Origin: Porticoccaceae bacterium
GTDB taxonomy: Bacteria; Pseudomonadota; Gammaproteobacteria; Pseudomonadales; Porticoccaceae
DNA: 37,465 nucleotides
Direction: 5' to 3'
Assembly: GCA_029246925.1 (NCBI GenBank)
Contig: JAQWMF010000022.1
Span: forward strand, 1 to 37,465
Positions 26,455 through 37,465 of this stretch are shown here, piece after piece; the first letter of the stretch is position 1; each line of letters opens with the position of its first letter. Below the pieces are notes generated by a model. The model was not told the DNA's origin, did not search any database, and worked only from the letters and a program-made list of their open reading frames with translations. A program made the translations under genes and the position numbers.

Positions 26455-26530
26455 GCCCAAGTAGCTCAGTTGGTAGAGCAGTGGATTGAAAATCCTCGTG
26501 TCGGTGGTTCGATTCCGCCCTTGGGCACCA
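26455..26530 (+). tRNA. tRNA-Phe (anticodon GAA)
   Basis: 76 nt with encoded CCA. Acceptor GCCCAAG/CTTGGGC, D stem GCTC/GAGC, anticodon GAA at 26488-26490 in loop TTGAAAA, T arm GGTGG-TTCGATT-CCGCC. The anticodon stem GTGGA/TCCTC has a U-U mismatch at positions 28-42 (26482 and 26496), where a pair would be expected. The last 14 nt belong to the attachment site of the element that follows, and its natural terminator now lies about 3.2 kb downstream. Confidence 0.95.
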
Positions 26531-26580
26531 TATCTTAAAGTTTCCAAAAGTAACCCTTTGATGTTCCAGCAGTTTTCTTA
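26517..26580 (+). repeat. Left 64-bp inverted repeat, includes attL core
   Basis: Begins with the last 14 nt of tRNA-Phe and runs to just before the integrase start region. It matches the reverse complement of 28928-28991 at 60 of 64 positions. Its first 20 bp are also repeated directly at 29684-29703. Confidence 0.9.
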
Positions 26581-26602
26581 AACATGATTGCTGGGGGACA
26601 GT

Positions 26603-27738
26603 ATGGGGGACAAAAATTGCCCTTCTTATCTCTATCTTAAAGGTAAAACGTTTTACTTTAATCGACACGTGCCTTTGGATCTTAAAGGCCACTATAAAAC
26701 CAGACGTATTCGCCTGTTTTTAAAGACAGCTTCACCCTTTGAAGCAGCCAAAGCAGCCCGATCAATTGCCCAGCGATTAGATGATTATTGGATGGCCTTG
26801 CGTTTATCTTCCATGGATATTCCTGCTCTTCATCTGTTAAGACAAAAACCGCTTGAACCATCCAATGCCCCTACCCTCTCTGAGGCCTTATCAACATACC
26901 TAAGACTAAAAGGAAACAATAAATCAGATACATTTTTTAGGGGTGCTAGGCGCAATATCCAAGCAGTGATTGATGTACTTGAGGATAGACCCATAGACCA
27001 ATATCTGTCTTCAGATGCAGCCGCCTTTCGAGATTACTCATTAGATAGAGGATTAACGGTTGCCTCTGTTAAACGCAACTTCACCACTATTCGGTCTATT
27101 ATTAACTTAACCATTTCAGAGCAGGGTTTGGATTGCAAAAACCCCTTCTCTAAAGTGTTCTTTCCTGACTTGGATGATGTAAACCAACGCAAACCCTTCC
27201 CTACTGATTTACTAAAACTATTGCAGTCTAAATGCAGAGCTGAGAATGATAGTAAACGCTGGTTAATCGCCTTGATATCCGATACAGGCATGCGCCTTGC
27301 TGAGGCGGTAGGTCTTGCTGTTGATGATATTAAACTGGATAAGGAAATACCTTATATAGATATCAAACCACACCCTTGGCGGTCTTTAAAAACTAAAGGT
27401 AGCCAAAGAAAAATCCCACTGGTGAGTGAAGCTCTGTGGGCAGCTAGACAAATAAAGCATCTAATAAGACCAAGTTTGCTTTTCCTGATTACACCAATGC
27501 TCAGCTTTGTAATGCCAATTCAGCTAGTGCCGCATTAAACAGATGGGTACAGACAAATATCTCGAAAGATTATGTGATTCATTCACTCAGGCATAGTATG
27601 CGAGATCGATTAAGGGAGGTGCAATGCCCTGCTGAGATCATTGATCAGATTGGTGGGTGGAGTTCTAGGTCGATTGGGGAGAGTTATGGGGAGGGGTATC
27701 GCCTAAGAATGCTTCAGCGATGGTTGAGGAAATATTAA
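26603..27738 (+). pseudogene. Tyrosine recombinase (integrase), one frameshift
   Basis: XerC/phage-type integrase. Frame 1 runs from ATG 26603 (GGGGG just upstream) through an N-terminal domain (SYLYLKGKTFYFNRHVP), SAM-like core-binding domain and the first catalytic Arg (DTGMRLAEAVGL) and Lys (LKTKGSQRK). At about 27454-27460 the reading shifts; the remaining catalytic part continues in another frame to TAA at 27738 with HSLRHSMRD, QIGGWSS and the nucleophile region GESYGEGY. Adding one A to the AAA at 27454-27456 would restore a 378-residue enzyme with all catalytic residues. Frame 1 alone stops at 27538 and lacks H-x-x-R and Tyr. It is either a recent inactivation or a sequence error. It ends 16 bp from the convergent cargo gene. 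Confidence 0.88.
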
Positions 27739-27754
27739 CTTATCATCAATATAA

Positions 27755-28900
27755 TTAATGCTCCATTACCCTCAAAGCGTATGGATTTTTTATTTCGATT
27801 CGAAGAGTATCTTTATATTTGTTTATAACACCACTCGCGCACACGGTTTGAGATACAATGCCATCAATAGTCCCTATCCTTTCCTCAACCCCTTTTATTT
27901 TATTTTTCCATATCACAACAGTTAGCGGGCTATTAGGATATTTATCATAGAGATTTAAAAAGACATTCTTTGATGTGCGTTTTATTTGAACAATAGGCCC
28001 ACAAGCAACTGTAGACTTATTAGTGCAATAATGAGCATTACGAGCATCAATCTTGCTGCAATCAAAAGATTTGGAATTTAATCCAACTTTTTTCTCAAAA
28101 TTATTTATCGGAGCTTGAGAACTTCCAACAAATGAATTCTGACCTAACATAAAAATCAAACCTGTAACGGCTATGACTGCTATTATCATAACAAACCTAT
28201 TCATAATCTCATTCTCTAATTTTAAACCTTCCAATTCAGTTTGTGTTTCCGCTAAAGCATCATCAATCTTTTTTTGAAAATCATGCTGCAACCGAATTAC
28301 CAATTGGTCATGCTCTTTCTGAGCTCTTCTATACTCAGATTCTTTTTTTGATAATTCTGACTGGAGCGCTTTTATTGGCTTTTCTGACTGCCCTGCAGAT
28401 TGAGATTCTTTAATTTTGTTTTCCAAGAAATCAAGCTCAGCTTGATGCCTACTTAAGTCCTTCTCAAGTTTTGTTTTTTCTTCTGTATTTTTTCTCCTAA
28501 TTTGCGCATCAATTCTTTGCTTATCAAGGGTTTTTTCAATGCGTCTTATAACTCTAATTGGATCGTCAAAAAATTGTTTGTTACTAAACCTTAGTAAAGG
28601 ACCAACAGCCTCAAGAAGATCATTCTGACGCTCCAAAAATGCAGCCCAGTCTTTATGCGTCCTATCTTTATTAGTACCATCTAATTCAATAGCGAGTAAA
28701 AATCCTTTACTTTTATTTCTTATGAGAAAATCAATACGTCGATTTTTATTTAAACTGTCTTTAAACGAGTACTGTGTGATGATGTCAATTGGTTCAATTC
28801 CATTGATTTTGGCTAGTACTTCACTGGCAAATTCTTTCTCATAGCCCTGATTAAGACTTTCTTTATTAGTTTCTAACCAGTCACTCCAAATTTTTTTCAT
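27755..28900 (-). CDS. Predicted membrane protein: PD-(D/E)XK-like nuclease domain, coiled coil, membrane helix, OB-fold
   Basis: 381 residues, not a family I can name. Residues about 20-118 resemble the DUF2726-type restriction-nuclease fold: an early helix (EKEFASEVLAKI), then RRIDFLI with D57, then GFLLAIELDG with E72 and D74, and a helix-strand ending AVGPLLRFS. Residues 118-232 are charged and heptad-like (coiled coil). A membrane helix covers about 237-254. The C-terminal part (297-378) resembles an OB-fold: ACGPIVQIKRTSKNVFLNL, then PLTVVIWK, then QTVCASGVINKYKDTLRIEI. Four Cys lie after the membrane helix (281, 292, 300, 354). It is the only intact cargo gene of the tRNA-Phe element, convergent to the integrase, and its -35 (TTGATG) lies inside the right inverted repeat. 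A role in defence against foreign DNA is inference. Confidence 0.75.
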   Translation of the reverse strand: MKKIWSDWLETNKESLNQGYEKEFASEVLAKINGIEPIDIITQYSFKDSLNKNRRIDFLIRNKSKGFLLAIELDGTNKDRTHKDWAAFLERQNDLLEAVGPLLRFSNKQFFDDPIRVIRRIEKTLDKQRIDAQIRRKNTEEKTKLEKDLSRHQAELDFLENKIKESQSAGQSEKPIKALQSELSKKESEYRRAQKEHDQLVIRLQHDFQKKIDDALAETQTELEGLKLENEIMNRFVMIIAVIAVTGLIFMLGQNSFVGSSQAPINNFEKKVGLNSKSFDCSKIDARNAHYCTNKSTVACGPIVQIKRTSKNVFLNLYDKYPNSPLTVVIWKNKIKGVEERIGTIDGIVSQTVCASGVINKYKDTLRIEIKNPYALRVMEH

Positions 28901-30161: not shown

Positions 30162-31682
30162 ATGAAGATACTTATCTCTCAGGTGAGTTATTCGGTTCAA
30201 GCGACTTTATGCCTCTTTTGGATTCTTTTAAGCTCAATTATCTCTGCAAACACCCTAGAACCAACTACCGCCGTCACTCTGATCGACGAAAATGGTCATG
30301 CTGAAATACCCAGCACCTATACCCGCATTGACAATGGAGCCTTTCGAGATACCCATCTCATATCGGTCGCTATCCCTAACTCTGTCACCAGTATTGGTGA
30401 ATATGCTTTTCAAAATACACAGTTCGTATCAGTTATTATTAGTGGTCCTGTAACCACTATTGACCGGCGGGCTTTTAAATACCTAAATGGCGAAATATTT
30501 TTTATCAAACCTACTGAACAGGAATTTAGTATTTATGACTTCCCGGCCACTGTGGCTATTTATGCATGTGACGGTATTGATGAGGCGGGCAATTTGCTGA
30601 ACTGCGATAATGCTTACCCTAAGGACGAAAATAGTCATAATACTTTCGCGGTTAATAATGGTGGCGCTGGTCAGGTGATCTATACTGCTGCCACAGGTGC
30701 TCGCGACGGTGTCACTTACAGCCTGTCGGTAAATTCAGCATTTCATTCGCAGACTAGAGCTATTGAACAACGGTTTGTCGATAATGCCGATGGCTCAATA
30801 ACGTTGCAATTATTGGTTAACGCTTCCATGGCGTATAACTATTCGGATGGTATTGAGAATCTTGATTTGGTTGTCAGCTACAACCTTGATGAGATTGAAT
30901 ATATTACGGCTGACCACATTTCTACACCATCAAATCCATTTGCATCTTTCTTTAATACTGAGTATTCAGCTGGTGATATTTTGCTTGCTCAGGTGTACTT
31001 CCCTACGGCATTAAATTTGGCGAGTGAAATACCCATATTAGAGGTGGACTTTACTCTTAAACCTTGGGTTACATCTGCTCAATTTGAGATATCAGGTGTA
31101 ATGCTCAACAATGATGATTTGACCGACATGGTATCTGGGTCTAGGTATCTTGGAGACGATGGATTAAGTATTGATGTGGTTACTGGCGCAGTTACTTTAT
31201 TCACAAACCCTAACTATGAGTCGCAACCTCAGTACAGCTTTACTGTAACAACAACTAATGATTCCAATATATCTAGTCAGCAAGCGGTCGTTGTAACTGT
31301 AGTCGATAGTGCGGAACAGGCTATCTACAGAACGACATGGGACTTTGATGGCAATGGACAGGGGGATGCATTGACTGACGGTATGCTCTTAGTGCGCTAT
31401 GAGTTTGATCTTAGAGACAGTGTGCTGGTTGAGGGTGCTGTCGCTGAAAATTCCCCGCTTTCTCACACCGAGATTCAGTTAAATCTGGATGAGGCAAAAG
31501 ATATTGCAGATATTAATGGCGATGGGCAAGTAAGGGCTCTTTCCGATGGCCTGTTACTACTGCGCCATCTATTCGGTCTCGGTGGCAATAGGCTGGTTAA
31601 AGACGCTGTTTATTCTCAGGGTTCACGTCAGACGCCAGAAGATATTGCGGCTTATATTAATAGCTATATGCCAGTTCAGTAG
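30162..31682 (+). CDS. Secreted protein: BspA-type LRR, cohesin-like domain nested in a cadherin-like domain, dockerin-like C-terminus
   Basis: 506 residues with an N-terminal signal peptide (hydrophobic about 11-28). Residues 52-107 form BspA-type leucine-rich repeats (IDNGAFRDTHLISVAIPNSVTSIGEYAF). Cadherin-like strands (GAGQVIYTAATGARDGVTYSLSV, about 168-190) resume much later with LSIDVVTGAVTL and QYSFTVTTT (335-365). Between them (about 196-333) sits a beta domain with IENLDLVVSYNLDEIEYI, similar to cohesin. The C-terminus (391-506) holds two calcium-loop repeats, WDFDGNGQGDALTDGMLL and ADINGDGQVRALSDGLLL, and the tail AYINSYMPVQ. It is convergent to the gene at 31748 with a shared terminator. 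The second loop has Arg where Asp is usual. Likely displayed outside the cell. Confidence 0.8.
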   Translation: MKILISQVSYSVQATLCLFWILLSSIISANTLEPTTAVTLIDENGHAEIPSTYTRIDNGAFRDTHLISVAIPNSVTSIGEYAFQNTQFVSVIISGPVTTIDRRAFKYLNGEIFFIKPTEQEFSIYDFPATVAIYACDGIDEAGNLLNCDNAYPKDENSHNTFAVNNGGAGQVIYTAATGARDGVTYSLSVNSAFHSQTRAIEQRFVDNADGSITLQLLVNASMAYNYSDGIENLDLVVSYNLDEIEYITADHISTPSNPFASFFNTEYSAGDILLAQVYFPTALNLASEIPILEVDFTLKPWVTSAQFEISGVMLNNDDLTDMVSGSRYLGDDGLSIDVVTGAVTLFTNPNYESQPQYSFTVTTTNDSNISSQQAVVVTVVDSAEQAIYRTTWDFDGNGQGDALTDGMLLVRYEFDLRDSVLVEGAVAENSPLSHTEIQLNLDEAKDIADINGDGQVRALSDGLLLLRHLFGLGGNRLVKDAVYSQGSRQTPEDIAAYINSYMPVQ

Positions 31683-31698
31683 AGAATTTGTAGCCAAA

Positions 31699-31731
31699 AA
31701 AAAAGCTCTCTAGAAACTAGAGAGCTTTTTT
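31699..31731. terminator. Bidirectional terminator between convergent surface-protein genes
   Basis: AAAAAGCTCTCTAG / CTAGAGAGCTTTTT, a 14-bp perfect stem with loop AAA, flanked by an A run on one side and a T run on the other, so it can stop both the rightward gene at 30162 and the leftward gene at 33388. Confidence 0.93.
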
Positions 31732-31747
31732 ATCTCGAAATTGTCAA

Positions 31748-33388
31748 CTATCGAGGTAAATACTTTGTAATGTAGTCAAAGACTTCATCCGCTGAAGATC
31801 TTTCTGCGCCATAGGCTGTAACACCCTGCACTAGAGGCTCTCCATCTAAGCCAAATAGATAGCGAAGCAACAATAGACCATCGGTTAGTGCATCTACATC
31901 GCCATTGGCATCAATATCAGCAATGACCAAGGCATTGACTACCTCAGACTCAACTTGGCTTGATGTTAGTGGTGAATTAGTTGCCATAACATCCTGAGTG
32001 AGAGTATCTCCTCGCAGGCCAAAGGTATATCTCAACAATATTAGACCGTCAGTGAGAGCATCTACCTCGCCATTACCATCAAAGTCCCAAGTAGCTGCTA
32101 AAACGTCCATATCAAAGCTTGTTGAATCAAAATCATAGCCTGCAGAGACACTGATAGCGGAGAATGCAACTGTGGTTGCTGTGGCCGTATCCGTTTCAAT
32201 AGCTTCTGACACATTAAAGTCTACTGACAGTAATTTTGCCGGCAAGTCAGTATTTGGCCAGTTGCCAGCCACTGAGGCCCAAGCTAGGGTTATATATTGA
32301 TCGGTAGCAGCATTACCATCGTAGTTTTCTTCATCGAAGAACGGTCCTTCTGCATCTACAATAAGGTCTTGGTCTATATGCACCAATGTGTCATTAATGC
32401 TCAGGAATGAACTATCAAAATGAATACGGAACCCCAAACCTGGCAGCTGATTTTGATCATCTGTGGTGCTGTAACCAATATCCACTGTGGTTGTGGTACC
32501 TATAACACCTAGAGGCTCACCCATCACCGATATATTTTGGGTATGGCGACCAATCGTTGGATCTAATGGGTCTCGGTCTTCCTCATCGGGAACACCGTCA
32601 TTATCATCATCGATATCGGCATTGTTACCTATGCCATCGCCGTCGGTATCTTCCCATTCTGTTGAGTCAAAGGGGAAGGCATCTTCATCATCATTTCTTA
32701 TATCATTATCATCGTTGGGATCTGCATTATCACCTATACCATCACCATCATTGTCGTAACATTCTGTTGGGTCATAGGGAAATATATCCACACTATCAGG
32801 GCAACCATCACCATCAGAATCATTTGTGATTGGTAATACATAATTGATCCCAGCAAACGCATAACCAGCGGCAGTACTTGATGCGCTAAAGTTGATCGGC
32901 GTGGAATCATTATCAGGAATCTCACCTTCGGGCTCTTGAATAGTAAATTGTACAGTGAACAGATCCGTCGAATTAGATCCCGGCCAAACACCAAATAGTG
33001 ATGCCCAGTTTGCGATAAAGTAGGCATCCGTTGTGCTGTCATTATCATAATCTTGATCATCACTGAATGATGTAGTGCTTGGCAATGTAATTGCGTCGCT
33101 TGTGAACACATCTTCAAATCCATCTAGTGTAATAACTGAACTATCATAATGAACTCGCAACCCAAGACCGGTGAGATTGGATTGAGTAGCTTCGTAGGAA
33201 ATGGTAATGCTATTACCCTCTCCATAGGAAGCAATGGGATCATCTTTGATAGAAATAGCCTGCTCATTAGCATTGGCGGCAGAACCTACAGTAAATAAAG
33301 CACTAAAGACTGTCCAGAATATGAGGACTTTTAACCCTGCAAAAGGGCTAAAGGATTTTTTATAATTATTGGATGTTAAATTAAACAT
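31748..33388 (-). CDS. Secreted protein with two cohesin-like domains, thrombospondin-type-3 repeats and a dockerin-like C-terminus
   Basis: 546 residues from ATG 33388 (GGAGAGAGAG upstream); the frame is open to 33448 but the signal peptide (about 1-40, ...FTVGSAANA) starts here. Cohesin-like domain 1 covers 44-186 with GLGLRVHYDSS and ANWASLFGVWP. Acidic TSP3-type calcium repeats (189-279, DNDGDGIGDNAD and the like) form a stiff spacer. Cohesin-like domain 2 covers 283-430 with GLGFRIHFDSS and LAWASVAGNWP. The dockerin-like module is at 433-546: WDFDGNGEVDALTDGLILLRY, then ADIDANGDVDALTDGLLLLRY 56 residues later, ending DYITKYLPR. Having both kinds of module in one chain would allow head-to-tail assembly, if the modules do pair (inference). 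Confidence 0.82.
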   Translation of the reverse strand: MFNLTSNNYKKSFSPFAGLKVLIFWTVFSALFTVGSAANANEQAISIKDDPIASYGEGNSITISYEATQSNLTGLGLRVHYDSSVITLDGFEDVFTSDAITLPSTTSFSDDQDYDNDSTTDAYFIANWASLFGVWPGSNSTDLFTVQFTIQEPEGEIPDNDSTPINFSASSTAAGYAFAGINYVLPITNDSDGDGCPDSVDIFPYDPTECYDNDGDGIGDNADPNDDNDIRNDDEDAFPFDSTEWEDTDGDGIGNNADIDDDNDGVPDEEDRDPLDPTIGRHTQNISVMGEPLGVIGTTTTVDIGYSTTDDQNQLPGLGFRIHFDSSFLSINDTLVHIDQDLIVDAEGPFFDEENYDGNAATDQYITLAWASVAGNWPNTDLPAKLLSVDFNVSEAIETDTATATTVAFSAISVSAGYDFDSTSFDMDVLAATWDFDGNGEVDALTDGLILLRYTFGLRGDTLTQDVMATNSPLTSSQVESEVVNALVIADIDANGDVDALTDGLLLLRYLFGLDGEPLVQGVTAYGAERSSADEVFDYITKYLPR

Positions 33389-33615
33389 TACTCTCTCTCC
33401 AAAATTTATTTTTTTTATTAATTTACTTTCTATAACGTCATTGCGCATACTAACCCACCAATTTTTGGAACGCCAATATTAAAGGGATTTTGAAATTAAA
33501 ATACGACAGGGCCACCCTAAAATAGGTTAAAAATTTGATGCTACTTTTATAACTTTAAATCCTGATGTATAGTCGTAAAAAGGGTTCACATAACAAAATA
33601 AGAGCGGAGTATTCA

Positions 33616-34629
33616 ATGAAAGTATTAATTTCAGCCATGATTATCACAATAGGTTTTCTAGTTTTCTTTATTGCGGGAAACGACACAGATACACCGATTG
33701 ACACTCCCATTTCGCAGCAACAATCGCTAGATGCTCATACTACAAATGATCATGAGCATACAATTAGCGAGGATACTAAAACCTCATCGAGTAAAGATGG
33801 CGCCCAATCTGGAACTCCAAACACGCTTTATGCCCAGAAGGAATCCAATAATAGCGACGATAATAGCACCTCCTATAGTCAGAATAATTCAAGCTATGCG
33901 GCTAGCGGCTCATCCTATAATCAGGATAATTCAAACTATGGGAATGCTGGCTCATCCTATAATCAGGATGATTCAGGCTACGAAAATTCTAATGCATCAT
34001 ACAGCCAAAATAATACAGGCTACGGGAATGCTGGCACCTCAAATAGTCAAAATAGTTCAAGCTATGGCAGTACTAGCTCCACTGGCAGTCTAAGTCAGTC
34101 AACCAGTACTAATAGCACTACAAACACTGATGCTGCAAATAATGATCAAGATGATGTTAACTCTGAAAATGCAGAAGCAGCTGAGGAAACAGATACAGCC
34201 GAAGAACAAAAAGATATCGATAATATAAAGTATCAAAGACTCTATGATAACGGCATTATGTGGTACGGAAATACAGGTACATTGATGGTTGAATACCAAT
34301 CCTCAGATGCACAAACCACTGGCATTGGCTTTCGCGTCCATTATGATAGCTCCGCAATAAAGCCCGTTAGCGTCGAACAATTCCCTGTAGATGCCATCAT
34401 AACTACTTCGCCTAAAACGGTAATGGCTGATACTGATAACCGCGACAACGATACTAATACCGACCAATTTCTACCCTTTGCCTGGGCTTCTATATACGGT
34501 CAGTGGCCTCAAACTAATCAAATCAATCTTGCGACCATTGAATTTGAGAAAGTTGACGGCGGCTCAACAAATTACACTGTTAATTACTCAGCCGTTAGTG
34601 TTCCCGCAGGGTTTCGCTTAATTAAGTAG
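33616..34629 (+). CDS. Membrane-anchored low-complexity protein with one C-terminal cohesin-like domain
   Basis: 337 residues from ATG 33616 (GGAG 6 nt upstream; the frame is open to 33565). A hydrophobic N-terminal segment (4-20) without a clear cleavage site suggests a membrane anchor. Residues 86-155 are five 14-residue repeats rich in Ser, Asn, Tyr and Gly (S-Y-(S/N)-Q-(N/D)...), followed by an acidic linker (about 176-203). Residues 212-337 form a cohesin-like domain with GIGFRVHYDSS (236-246) and FAWASIYGQWP, the same signatures as in the 31748 protein. No dockerin-like module. The layout, anchor then flexible stalk then binding domain, would fit a cell-surface receptor for the dockerin-like tags of its neighbours; this is inference. 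Confidence 0.75.
   Translation: MKVLISAMIITIGFLVFFIAGNDTDTPIDTPISQQQSLDAHTTNDHEHTISEDTKTSSSKDGAQSGTPNTLYAQKESNNSDDNSTSYSQNNSSYAASGSSYNQDNSNYGNAGSSYNQDDSGYENSNASYSQNNTGYGNAGTSNSQNSSSYGSTSSTGSLSQSTSTNSTTNTDAANNDQDDVNSENAEAAEETDTAEEQKDIDNIKYQRLYDNGIMWYGNTGTLMVEYQSSDAQTTGIGFRVHYDSSAIKPVSVEQFPVDAIITTSPKTVMADTDNRDNDTNTDQFLPFAWASIYGQWPQTNQINLATIEFEKVDGGSTNYTVNYSAVSVPAGFRLIK
33871..34080 (+). repeat. Five 42-bp tandem repeats (14-residue stalk repeat)
   Basis: In-frame units of 42 bp starting SYSQNNSSY, SYNQDNSNY, SYNQDDSGY, SYSQNNTGY and SNSQNSSSY. Protein and DNA are both clearly periodic; such repeats can gain or lose units and so change stalk length. Confidence 0.85.
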
Positions 34630-34664
34630 TGCTTATTAATGGGTTTTATCACGCATAGATAGTT

Positions 34665-34693
34665 AAAAAGGGCTCCCAGTGGGGGCCCTTTTT
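34665..34693 (+). terminator. Terminator after the anchored cohesin-like gene
   Basis: AAAAAGGGCTCCC / GGGGGCCCTTTTT, a 13-pair stem (one G-U) around loop AGT, 35 bp after the stop at 34629. Symmetric enough to act in both directions, also for the decayed gene on the other strand. Confidence 0.9.
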
Positions 34694-34720
34694 AGTACTA
34701 CATACAATCAGCCATTCAGT

Positions 34721-35200
34721 TTATGGCCTATGCTTTTCAAGATGGGCTTTTAACTCATCTAAATTTATTCGACTGGCAGTTTGAGAAAATATTCCTGCTG
34801 TTAGCAAACTATCATCAATACCAAACAGATCTCACAATAGAATCAACCCATCTGTATCTGAAATATTTCTCGCTTGTTCAAAATTAGACCCAATTTCACT
34901 GTACGATAAGACTGATCCAGCCGCGACTAAACTATCAATCTATTAGCTCTTACCATAGGCGTAACGCACGAGGCGTATACCACCTGCCAATACAGAGGCA
35001 GACCCATTGCCAGAAGTACCACTAATTAATGCCAAGCTGACAGTTGTAGTTATCTATTACCTTTGTAGCAGTATTGAAGTTACTAGTTAATAAGGCCGCC
35101 GTTAATTTAACAGACCCACTACCAAATAATGACGTTCAGCCTACGGTTACGTACTCATCTATTGATTGATCTTTATTAAAATATTCCTCATCAATCCGTC
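34721..35200 (-). pseudogene. Decayed cohesin-like/dockerin-like protein gene
   Basis: On the minus strand, broken frames still read as the C-terminal half of the neighbouring proteins. From 5' to 3': DEYVTVG-stop-TSLFGSG (cf. TDQYITLAWASVAG), then RLVRYAYGK (cf. LLLVRYAFG) with the first calcium loop eroded to TSGNGSASVLAGG, then SLVAAGSVLSYSEIG, NISDTDG, LILL-stop-DLFGIDDSLL (cf. LLLLRHLFGL), and the tail ELKAHLEKHRP before a final stop at 34721. Several in-frame stops and shifts rule out an intact product. No start is preserved; the upstream limit is approximate. It has terminators on both sides, as an independent gene would. Confidence 0.75.
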
Positions 35201-35268
35201 AAGGTATCTGATACTTAAACGACTCAGTACAGTCGTATTTATTGAATGCAATGAGTATTGAGTAGACA

Positions 35269-35301
35269 AAAAAAAGCCCCGATAAAAATCAGGGCTTTTT
35301 T
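35269..35301. terminator. Terminator downstream of the large surface-protein gene
   Basis: A run, GCCC-c-GAT, loop AAAA, ATC-a-GGGC, T run: a stem with one mismatch, flanked by A and T runs so that it works for leftward transcripts from the gene ending at 35345. Confidence 0.85.
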
Positions 35302-35344
35302 CTGAATCTAGATTCGTCAATCAAATCTAGATCAATTTTGCATA

Positions 35345-37465
35345 CTACTGAGGCATATGCCCATTGATGTAGTCTACAATTTCTGCTGCTGTTGTACGCG
35401 TACCATCTGGGTGAACAACACCACCAACTAGGTCATCGCCCTCTAATGCAAATAGATGACGTAGTAACAACAGACCATCTGACAGTGGATCAACCGAACC
35501 ATTACCATCGATATCAGAGATATCATGGGCTTTGGTTAATCTATCTTCAACTTCAGCCGCTGATAGCGTTGAATCAAGAGCCGTTGAACCATCAGATAGC
35601 ATTTCACCACGCAGTCCAAATGCATAACGAACAAGCAGTAGACCATCAGTTAACGCATCCACATGACCATTACCATCAAAGTCCCAGTTAGCACCGTGAG
35701 CAGTTACTTTCACATTACTGATAGTAACGGGTAGATCACGCTCTACCAAGTACAGTAGGAACGAGCTATGTGTGTTCGAACCCTGTGCTGGTAGATTAAT
35801 ACTGTAGTCAGCTGAACCAGCAGCAACAGTTACAGTATCTGAAGCAAATGACGGCTCTGTATCTGGGTAAGGTGCAGCTTCAAACTTGAAGTACACATTT
35901 ACATCAGCATCCGCTGAACCAGTAAAGGTCAACGTACCACCATTCTCTAAGCTAAATGGATACAAGTCAGCATTGTTATTAGCAACACCTGCCCATCCCT
36001 CAGCACCTGCTGGGAATGTAAAGGTTTCACCGTCAACTACAACACCACCAAATGCACCACTAAATACGGCAACTGATGGATCTGGTGAAGCAGTTACACG
36101 CACATCCTTAACAACCACTGGAAGATCACGATCAACAATGTACAGCAAGAACGAGCTGAACGTGTCCTCACCTCGCGATGGGATCTCTAAAGTGTAAGTT
36201 GCTTCTTCAGTACCAGTAACAGTTACCGTCGCAGTATCATACGCTGGATCAACATCTGGCCAAGGCATACGCTCAAATCTAAAGCGTACATTCACATCAC
36301 CTGAAGGCGCTGCACCAGTAAAGGTCACAGTACCACCGTGCGGGAATGAGAATGGATATAGAACAGTATTGTCGTTCGCAACACCAGCCCAACCCTCAGC
36401 ATAACTTGGGAAAGTAAATGTAGAACCATTCGCTTCAACACCACCAAATGCACCAGTAAATACTGCAACTGTAAGATCTTGCTCAGTTACTGCAGGATCA
36501 TTTGGCGCATAATCAGCATTGTCGCCAACACCGTCGCCATCTGAATCAACAGTCTCAGTCGGATCATTCGGGAAGGCATCAGCATTATCACCAGCACCAT
36601 CACCATCTGAATCTACAGTTTCAGTCGCATCATTCGGGAACGCATCTGATTCATCAGCAACACCGTCGCCATCTGAATCTACAGGCGCTGGAGTACCACC
36701 GAAGTAAATGTTATTGAATGCAACAGCACCGTTACCATCTACTTTGAACTGGAACACATCTGCTAAATTAACATTGTCATAGTGGCTTAATGGAATCTGA
36801 ACGCTATTCCACTGATCCGCTACAGAAACATCAAGCGCATAAGCCTTCTCTGCTCCTGGGCTAATGACGAAGAAGTTAACCGCTGATGACTCAGTTACAT
36901 AGTAATCAACATTGAGATACTCGTAACCAGATACATCTGAGTTAGCAAACTGCGTACCCTGATAGTTCAAGTTAGTGTAAGCAAGGTTATCACCTACTTC
37001 TACCTGTGTAGATTGACCCCAGTTAGGATTGAAGTCAGTGCCATCTAGGTTACCGTATGTAGTACCAAATACAGAAAGAACTGAATCAGCCGCCTCTGTT
37101 GGTACTGGTGCAGCCGGAAGCGTTGGCGCTTCTGGAGCAACATAAGGTGTTGTATCACAGCTACCGTAGGCTACAACATCCAATGTGATGTCGGCTTCTG
37201 CCACATCAACAAAGCGATCATTGTAAGCACCGATATTACAGCCACCTTCAATTAAGCCAACAGGATCTTCAAAACCGTCCCATGTGCCATATGAAGGCTG
37301 GTTACGGAATTTATACATGTACTGAGCATTAAACGCTAGATCAAGTGTTACTGACCATACGTCGCTGCCATTATCAGTCAATGCATGACCGTCCTGACCA
37401 AAGCCGCCGCCAGCAATATAAACGCCATCAGCGTTAGTATCTACTGCAGACATATCAACTTGGAA
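35345..37465 (-). CDS. Large secreted multidomain protein with dockerin-like C-terminus (partial, 5' end beyond window)
   Basis: The frame is open to the window edge; an ATG at 37453 exists, but FQVD before it continues a typical strand (FQVDMSAVDTNADGVYIAGG), so the true start lies outside. Numbering from that Met: residues 1-100 resemble a carbohydrate-binding or E-set domain of marine secreted enzymes; 126-253 is a second beta domain (SVFGTTYGNLDGTDFNPNWG... LADVFQFKVDGNG); 258-320 are TSP3-type calcium repeats; 329-455 and 461-585 are two copies of one beta domain (GAFGGV, GWAGVAN, SSFLLYIVDRDLPV); 590-702 is the dockerin-like module with loops D591-D593-N595-D599 and D647-D649-N651-D655, ending DYINGHMPQ. 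No catalytic domain is visible; one may lie upstream. Polysaccharide binding is a reasonable guess. Confidence 0.8.
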   Translation of the reverse strand, partial: FQVDMSAVDTNADGVYIAGGGFGQDGHALTDNGSDVWSVTLDLAFNAQYMYKFRNQPSYGTWDGFEDPVGLIEGGCNIGAYNDRFVDVAEADITLDVVAYGSCDTTPYVAPEAPTLPAAPVPTEAADSVLSVFGTTYGNLDGTDFNPNWGQSTQVEVGDNLAYTNLNYQGTQFANSDVSGYEYLNVDYYVTESSAVNFFVISPGAEKAYALDVSVADQWNSVQIPLSHYDNVNLADVFQFKVDGNGAVAFNNIYFGGTPAPVDSDGDGVADESDAFPNDATETVDSDGDGAGDNADAFPNDPTETVDSDGDGVGDNADYAPNDPAVTEQDLTVAVFTGAFGGVEANGSTFTFPSYAEGWAGVANDNTVLYPFSFPHGGTVTFTGAAPSGDVNVRFRFERMPWPDVDPAYDTATVTVTGTEEATYTLEIPSRGEDTFSSFLLYIVDRDLPVVVKDVRVTASPDPSVAVFSGAFGGVVVDGETFTFPAGAEGWAGVANNNADLYPFSLENGGTLTFTGSADADVNVYFKFEAAPYPDTEPSFASDTVTVAAGSADYSINLPAQGSNTHSSFLLYLVERDLPVTISNVKVTAHGANWDFDGNGHVDALTDGLLLVRYAFGLRGEMLSDGSTALDSTLSAAEVEDRLTKAHDISDIDGNGSVDPLSDGLLLLRHLFALEGDDLVGGVVHPDGTRTTAAEIVDYINGHMPQ
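35699..36073 (-). repeat. Second copy of a duplicated ~125-residue beta domain
   Basis: Pairs with 36089-36469. The shared framework is VAVF(T/S)GAFGGV, TFTFP, EGWAGVAN, LYPFS, GGT(V/L)TFTG, DVNV, SSFLLY(I/L)V and RDLPV. Copies are diverged at many positions, so the duplication is old. Five residues link the two. Confidence 0.8.
36089..36469 (-). repeat. First copy of a duplicated ~125-residue beta domain
   Basis: N-terminal partner of the copy at 35699-36073, directly following the TSP3-type calcium repeats (36494-36682). It keeps the same order of strands and the same aromatic positions (W in GWAGVAN, the MPWPD/APYPD acidic turn). Confidence 0.8.

Follow-up and report, generated by a model that had tools for sequence, protein, structure and literature searches.

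The window analysed here, a stretch of 37,465 nucleotides (C22:1-37465 of a 1.55 Mb assembly that is 90.8% complete), comes from a Porticoccaceae bacterium of the marine SAR92 clade. Its segment 30162-37465 is filled by four protein genes, P0001 to P0004, whose products share two kinds of domain: a beta domain that resembles cohesins and a double calcium-loop module that resembles dockerins, the two partners of a known protein pair. We describe the genes, the two domain families and their distribution, and then the predicted cohesin-dockerin system to which they may belong.

P0001 (30162-31682, forward strand, 506 amino acids) combines LRR_5 repeats (E 1.7e-12), a beta domain termed type B that is cohesin-like by eye only (30711-31172, forward; E 9.6e-76, seed member) and a C-terminal dockerin-like module (31332-31673, forward; E 6.9e-62, seed). 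P0002 (31748-33448, reverse, 566 amino acids) has an adaptor-scaffoldin-like order of parts, namely a cohesin-like domain (domain 1; 32828-33256, reverse; E 1.7e-69, seed), TSP3-like acidic repeats (32558-32824, reverse; TSP_3 E 0.32; NF047638 E 1.3e-6 with 27.6 bits, far under the cut-off of 350), a further cohesin-like domain (domain 2; 32102-32533, reverse), whose model is all-beta and whose best matches in the PDB are cohesins, and a dockerin-like module (31751-32095, reverse) whose model has six helices, arranged as two repeats.

P0003 (33565-34629, forward, 354 amino acids) starts with an N-terminal hydrophobic segment, continues with a long Ser/Asn-rich linker and ends in a C-terminal cohesin-like domain (34234-34626, forward; E 2.6e-63, seed), without a module. 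The linker is very regular, with SSYNQDNSNYGNAG-like repeats, and the linker of another protein of this genome (C31:5895-7289) is made of DDST repeats. Between P0003 and P0004, beside the intact copies, lies a broken remnant of the module with three in-frame stops (34724-35014, reverse; E 6.1e-11). P0004 (35345-37465, reverse, at least 706 amino acids, its N-terminus lying outside the window) contains beta-sandwich-like stretches, acidic repeats and a C-terminal dockerin-like module (35348-35692, reverse; E 9.0e-62, seed); a Pfam scan of it gave zero families over the cut-off. When the window proteins were scanned with Pfam and NCBIfam, no family came over its cut-off for the module or the beta domain.

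The cohesin-like and dockerin-like families

The first-pass annotation had assigned a cohesin-like strand pattern to four beta domains. Three of them, two in P0002 and one in P0003, share the beta-strand motif and are upheld as one family, while the type-B domain of P0001 had to be set aside, with a profile-profile probability of 0.6% for being a cohesin (3 rows on the type-B side). The latter is a separate repeated domain without a family, present also on the cadherin-repeat proteins of contigs C65 and C36 and found in 4 of 50 genomes of the genus; a distant relative of it in genome G041 has a weak Pfam Cohesin match (E 0.015). A profile of the three retained domains had 12 matches across the genome at E<=1, three of them being the seeds, and the weakest (E 6.4e-6), a partial match on C76, looks like the overlapping end of C65.

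Domain 2 of P0002 (window 32102-32533) was modelled from an alignment of 76 rows, consisting of 74 of 79 domains of a wider collection (five dropped by hand) and two window copies, and the model has high confidence scores (predicted local distance difference test score, pLDDT, 94.3; predicted template modelling score, pTM, 0.89). The predicted structure is a beta-sandwich of the cohesin type. Because ranks 1-29 of a Foldseek search of the PDB with this model are all cohesin or scaffoldin entries, the modelled beta domain belongs to the cohesins by fold; 14 matches have E<=0.001, the best is 5lxv_A (E 6.2e-5), and the template modelling (TM) scores relative to the query are mostly 0.5-0.66. Searches with Pfam and with profiles against the PDB agree with the fold search. 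PF00963 matches 17 of the 38 beta domains in the genus alignment (38 of 39 domains, near-duplicates dropped) at E<=1, the best at 2.6e-6, and other families match at most one member each. In six-frame scans PF00963 exceeds its curated cut-off in 5 of the 50 genus genomes, including the window's own genome (C39:13005 and C31:13947), and has matches in 2 of 14 control genomes, over the cut-off in 1. The sole PDB sequence match of the cohesin profile up to E 10 is the ScaC cohesin (E 0.16). Domain 2 of P0002 also has a weak OmpX match (20 bits, cut-off 176).

The module was described at first pass as a double calcium-loop unit at the end of three proteins, with loops about 56 residues apart and a common tail, and each of these features is found. 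The three window copies align over 116 columns with a mean column identity of 72%, their loops are exactly 56 residues apart, and they end in AYINSYMP, DYITKYLP and DYINGHMP. The genome-wide count that had been proposed, made with the three-module profile at E<=0.1, gave 14 places, of which 13 are stop-free (E 6.9e-62 to 8.9e-36, three being seeds and the copy on C26 being cut by the contig end) and one is broken. The wide spacing is general as well, with 56-60 residues in 69 of 76 distinct modules, the other 7 not fitting the pattern used. Within the module of 115 residues, the calcium-loop positions 1, 3, 5, 9 and 13 are conserved as D, D, N/D, D and D. In all 44 modules of the genus alignment (44 of 47, near-duplicates dropped), the first loop has D, D, D, L, T, D and G at positions 1, 3, 9, 11, 12, 13 and 14, and the second loop is invariant at positions 1, 11 and 13. 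The loops comprise 13 residues, the extra residue relative to a dockerin loop being visible in the alignment to 1ohz_B, and the module halves (26 residues) are on average 70% identical, that is, near-symmetric repeats.

A model of the module from 38 rows (37 plus one window copy; pLDDT 97.4, pTM 0.89) predicts two repeats of loop, helix, short helix and helix, in which helices H13-24 and H69-80 come after the two loops. The module would thereby have two calcium loop-helix repeat units, as does Dockerin type I (PF00404), while the 12-residue loops and the length of about 60 residues that make up the layout of that family are not found in it. Searched against PDB sequences, the module profile matches the 1ohz dockerin best (E 0.004). 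Dockerin_1 matches 32 of the 44 genus modules at E<=1 (best 4.5e-5) and EF-hand_1 matches 16, and one module of the window's genome reaches 23 bits with Dockerin_1 (cut-off 22.9) when its neighbours in the frame are added. The dockerin likeness noted at first pass is in line with these searches. Because the module has a dockerin relationship and the repeat logic, yet lacks the defining family features, it is best called an enlarged dockerin variant, judged from sequence and model to be dockerin-related and not a canonical dockerin.

Carrier proteins, co-occurrence and gene neighbourhood

All 13 module carriers of the window's genome were scanned. Four have glycoside hydrolase (GH) domains, with GH16 plus CBM6 twice, GH81 once and GH3 plus CBM6 once; the others comprise a CotH plus LTD protein, a PF09826 beta-propeller, a di-haem oxidoreductase, a leucine-rich repeat (LRR) protein and five proteins without a family over the cut-off. 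A second genome (G043) has 17 modules in total and 13 module frames in the fetched stretches, and nine of these frames were scanned: GH16 plus CBM6 plus CotH, GH81, Glyco_hydro_cc and CotH plus LTD are among them, and the remaining ones are a beta-propeller, a di-haem oxidoreductase, an LRR protein, a frame with a weak cadherin match and one without a family. We take GH16, GH81, GH3 and Glyco_hydro_cc to fit beta-1,3-glucan, and the substrate of the carrier enzymes may be laminarin. The 13 carriers are not a cellulase/hemicellulase set held by a multi-cohesin scaffoldin, as a cellulosome would be. A WAGFAN-like repeated stretch was seen twice in P0004, twice in the GH81 protein, in both GH16 proteins and in a C43 protein (its carriers being P0004 and proteins on C3, C26, C31 and C43); it has no Pfam family over the cut-off and is a candidate glucan-binding domain.

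On the cohesin side, two cohesins and 18 cadherin stretches lie in a C65 frame with cadherin repeats that is at least 3014 residues long. Further cohesins are on another cadherin protein (C36), on C39:12543, whose start is lipoprotein-like, on P0003 and on a frame that the contig end cuts (C43). Five cohesins lie in four chains that also bear the module, namely P0002 (twice), a C1 protein and two C31 proteins. As assembled, the chains of this genome have at most two cohesins each. The two families are found both on separate proteins, with starts that we read as secretion-type, and in tandem. In relatives, four of ten scanned cohesin proteins end in sorting signals over the cut-off, these being JDVT-CTERM in the proteins of HTCC2207 (locus L167), L183 and L178 and IPTL-CTERM in that of L169.

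Cohesin and module occur together more often than expected. Among the 50 genus genomes, 32 have the module, 22 the cohesin and 21 both (Fisher p 2.7e-5, kinship ignored). In the sole genome with a cohesin and without a module (G028), two stops interrupt the cohesin copy; G002, G038 and G046 each have just one module match, a weak one (E about 1e-9 to 4e-11). Neither family was matched at E<=1e-8 in 44 genomes of other genera in the family and order. An even draw of 369 Gammaproteobacteria including the window's own genome, with scoring limited to the 12 or 11 best candidates of each genome, has the cohesin in 3 and the module in 4. Among the other 368 genomes, 3 have the module and 2 the cohesin, and both of the latter belong to the module genomes (p 4.4e-5); each has cohesin and module on a single contig, at a distance of about 2.3 kb in one and 8.6 kb in the other. 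G353, one of these two genomes, agrees in its coordinates with G095, and the G095 locus L148 was itself a row in the wider cohesin alignment; the cohesin match of G353 is for this reason given by construction, and its module match is not.

Gene neighbourhood shows the same association. A module is present at 37 of 58 named cohesin loci, sharing the cohesin's frame at 26 of them and lying solely in separate frames at the other 11. Of the genomes that hold these loci, 22 were hand-picked; 17 of them have the module, and in 16 of these 17 (all but G114) a cohesin and a module share a frame or are no more than 9 kb apart. Four genomes have exactly one of each, encoded by adjacent genes in three and 8.6 kb apart in one. 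Thiothrix eikelboomii, with one cohesin and one module per genome, has adjacent genes (L175), and the same layout occurs at L173, L174 and L176; the module protein at L173-L176 has a trypsin-like match that falls just or somewhat short of the Pfam cut-offs (E 2e-5 to 4.8e-4). A cohesin gene followed by a module-bearing gene was also noticed at L161, which together with L173-L176 comes from Thiotrichaceae-type and other gammaproteobacterial genomes. In HTCC2207 (L167) a module-bearing frame of 950 residues is followed, 315 bases on and on the same strand, by a cohesin frame. This culture is titled marine gamma proteobacterium and belongs to the window's genus, since the module and cohesin coordinates of its genome, G094, equal those of the same-genus G039, which fits the marine origin surmised at first pass.

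Some more distant matches were also observed. For the cohesin and for the module alike, two genomes of single-cell type titled Prochlorococcus (AG-412-J13 and AG-402-L23) have 11 and 9 matches, some of them partial. The matches in these genomes (L163, L177, L184, L185, L187-L189) lie in several instances within a single chain and are unexpected for a phototroph; contamination is possible. Loci titled Planctomycetaceae, Pirellulaceae or bacterium (L140, L141, L147, L151, L157) have chains of about 1970-2810 residues with both domains, several times in alternation.

A predicted docking system and its alternatives

The pairing of cohesin and module is a prediction with strong circumstantial support. 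With a probability of about 0.6, we propose that the SAR92-clade bacterium has a non-cellulosomal Gram-negative cohesin-dockerin system with an enlarged dockerin, by which glucanases and binding proteins are displayed. Secreted proteins, including two GH16, a GH81 and a GH3 protein, would carry the enlarged dockerin with its two putative calcium loop-helix repeats, and surface-type proteins, including the cadherin-repeat protein of at least 3014 residues, the second cadherin-repeat protein, the probable lipoprotein and P0003, would carry the cohesins. Calcium would fold the module, and one repeat, or either of the two near-symmetric repeats, would bind a face of the cohesin. Such calcium-dependent docking would hold the glucanases and glucan-binding proteins on the cell surface, and chains of the P0002 type, with both parts, could add sockets and extend or branch the assembly.

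A number of results weigh against this proposal. The model of the module has no confident Foldseek match in the PDB (none at E<=0.001); its best match (E 0.16) is a calcium-binding domain, and the dockerin 1ohz_B is found at rank 25 (E 1.9, TM-score 0.56 by target length). In the PDB search with the module profile, calmodulins are close behind 1ohz, from E 0.0088, and Dockerin_1 is a poor discriminator, as it matches 9 of the 14 control genomes at E<=1 and exceeds its cut-off in 2. Of the searches with PF00963 and PF00404 that the first-pass annotation had suggested, the one with PF00963 brings some cohesins of relatives and of other places in the window's genome over the cut-off, and the three window cohesins do not reach Pfam Cohesin at E<=1. 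Nine of the 13 module carriers are without a GH domain. Some proteins join both parts, or a cohesin and an enzyme-like part (C31:11169; L164), for which reason the assignment of cohesins to scaffolds and dockerins to enzymes is not a strict rule. NCBIfam models for sorting or type I secretion gave nothing over the cut-off in seven cohesin-side sequences or parts of the window's genome; the cohesin proteins of this genome are probably on the surface as well, a location that is better supported in the relatives.

The distribution has its exceptions too. No module is held by 21 of the 58 named cohesin loci, and 5 of the 22 named cohesin-bearing genomes are without a module of this kind. Eleven of the 32 module-bearing genus genomes show no cohesin, among them the nearly complete G003 (98%, 6 modules), G016 (99%, 2 modules), G024 (97%, 3 modules) and G011 (94%, 1 module). 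Divergent cohesins near the modules were not found in 14 stretches (6 of 6 modules in G003, 5 of 9 in G015 and 3 of 3 in G024), where three frames scored, with E 0.12 to 1.4. The absence of cohesins from module genomes may be due to poor assembly of large repetitive genes, to other cohesin types or to another ligand of the module.

An alternative is that module and beta domain are both ordinary calcium-stabilised structural domains of large secreted proteins that do not bind each other, and that they occur together through their use in one and the same type of large surface protein. The modules without cohesins in 11 genus genomes and the lack of a confident dockerin match for the module fold suit this explanation, as does the fact that both domains often share a chain with TSP3-like, cadherin or immunoglobulin-like repeats. 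It is nevertheless unlikely, at perhaps one chance in a handful, when set against two families that independently indicate both partners of one known pair and that are encoded by adjacent separate genes in three of the four genomes with one copy of each. The invariant L11 and G14 of the first loop (44 of 44) need not bind metal and may be part of a recognition surface. A little less probable again is a pairing that takes place mainly within a chain or between copies of an adaptor and leads to a surface polymer or adhesive layer instead of an enzyme complex. The short-linker tandems of cohesin and module in P0002, the C1 protein and the two C31 proteins could be read in this way, as could the module in the cohesin frame at 26 of 58 loci, the alternating chains at L147, L151 and L157 and the nine carriers that are not GHs. 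Nine of the 13 module carriers, including a GH16, the GH81 and the GH3 proteins, have no cohesin in their chain as assembled, and elsewhere a cohesin and a protease-like protein are encoded by adjacent separate genes, both of which argue against this reading.

The first-pass annotation had named a cleaved C-terminal secretion signal as an alternative. The C-terminal position of the module in three window proteins would agree with a sorting or secretion function, which we nevertheless consider very improbable, since this position applies to just 5 of the 13 genome copies, one copy is internal and one is cut by the contig end, and the model is a confident, compact two-repeat fold. A C-terminal signal in the strict sense is rejected on the six copies that sit near the N-terminus.

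The predicted cohesin-dockerin system can be compared with several known ones. It shares with the type I pair of Clostridium thermocellum (1ohz) the beta-sandwich cohesin fold and a dockerin with a twice-repeated calcium loop-helix, and type I cohesins are among the best fold matches of the window cohesin. It differs from 1ohz in the 115-residue module with 13-residue loops 56 residues apart and extra helices after each loop-helix, in its GH16, GH81, GH3 and other carriers and in its setting in a Gram-negative marine genome. The ScaC cohesin of Ruminococcus flavefaciens (5lxv) is the best PDB match both by profile (E 0.16) and by fold (E 6.2e-5), with 15% identity in the fold alignment, and differs in host and cargo. 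Also among the best fold matches are the non-cellulosomal, enzyme-borne cohesin-like modules of Clostridium perfringens (2jh2, 2vo8, 2w1n), two of which are by title on glycoside hydrolases (GH33, GH84C); there the host is an animal-associated Gram-positive bacterium, and the partner module differs.

Most of what is known of cohesin-dockerin assembly comes from anaerobes that degrade cellulose, and a survey of 2009 reportedly covered non-cellulosomal cohesin and dockerin modules. The closest precedent is Saccharophagus degradans, likewise a marine gammaproteobacterium without a classical cellulosome, for which passages of a 2008 paper list 2 open reading frames (ORFs) as dockerin-like and 6 as having distant cohesin-like modules, leave binding open and give neither cargo nor anchors (PMC2386152). 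In a 2024 survey of the genomes of cellulosome bacteria, the words marine, Proteobacteria, Gram-negative and Pseudomonadota are absent from the main text (PMC11557425). During a North Sea bloom, the relative abundance of SAR92 rose to about 12%, and 4 of 6 highly expressed SAR92 metagenome-assembled genomes had laminarin-type loci; the study includes the SAR92 isolate X_MB111, the name on our locus L164, and its main text is without the words cohesin and dockerin (PMC10108472). A paper on a Vibrio GH17 protein describes a glucan-binding region (PMC9026390), which no result here ties to the window. Since non-cellulosomal cohesin-like and dockerin-like modules are already known, and no published account of such a system in SAR92 was found in our searches of open-licence papers, we regard the SAR92 system with its enlarged dockerin as a variant added to a known kind.

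If the prediction holds, docking in a small-genome marine SAR92 bacterium would resemble the display of enzymes by cellulosomes, and glucanases docked on the surface would hold their products near the cell in open water, which would bear on the modelling of laminarin turnover. It would make testable the question left by the 2008 work on S. degradans, whether dockerin-like and cohesin-like modules of marine gammaproteobacteria bind each other (PMC2386152), and a new calcium-dependent pair would be useful as a protein-assembly part. A more far-reaching version, to which we would give somewhat less than even odds, is that this planktonic Gram-negative bacterium of 1.5 Mb has a surface glucanase complex as a laminarin counterpart of the cellulosome, based on a new dockerin class (a 115-residue fold in which two calcium loops of 13 residues lie 56 residues apart) and a matching cohesin class, with related pairs in other phyla, including the Prochlorococcus-titled genomes.

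Upstream of the cluster, window 26455-27538 holds a tRNA-Phe and after it an integrase gene of phage type (28.1 bits with Phage_integrase, cut-off 27.1). An ORF at 27755-28900 has a weak match to the restriction-endonuclease-like MTES_1575 (34.7 bits, cut-off 38.2). The cohesin-module cluster begins about 2.6 kb past the integrase and could belong to an island, although the G+C content has no clear step.

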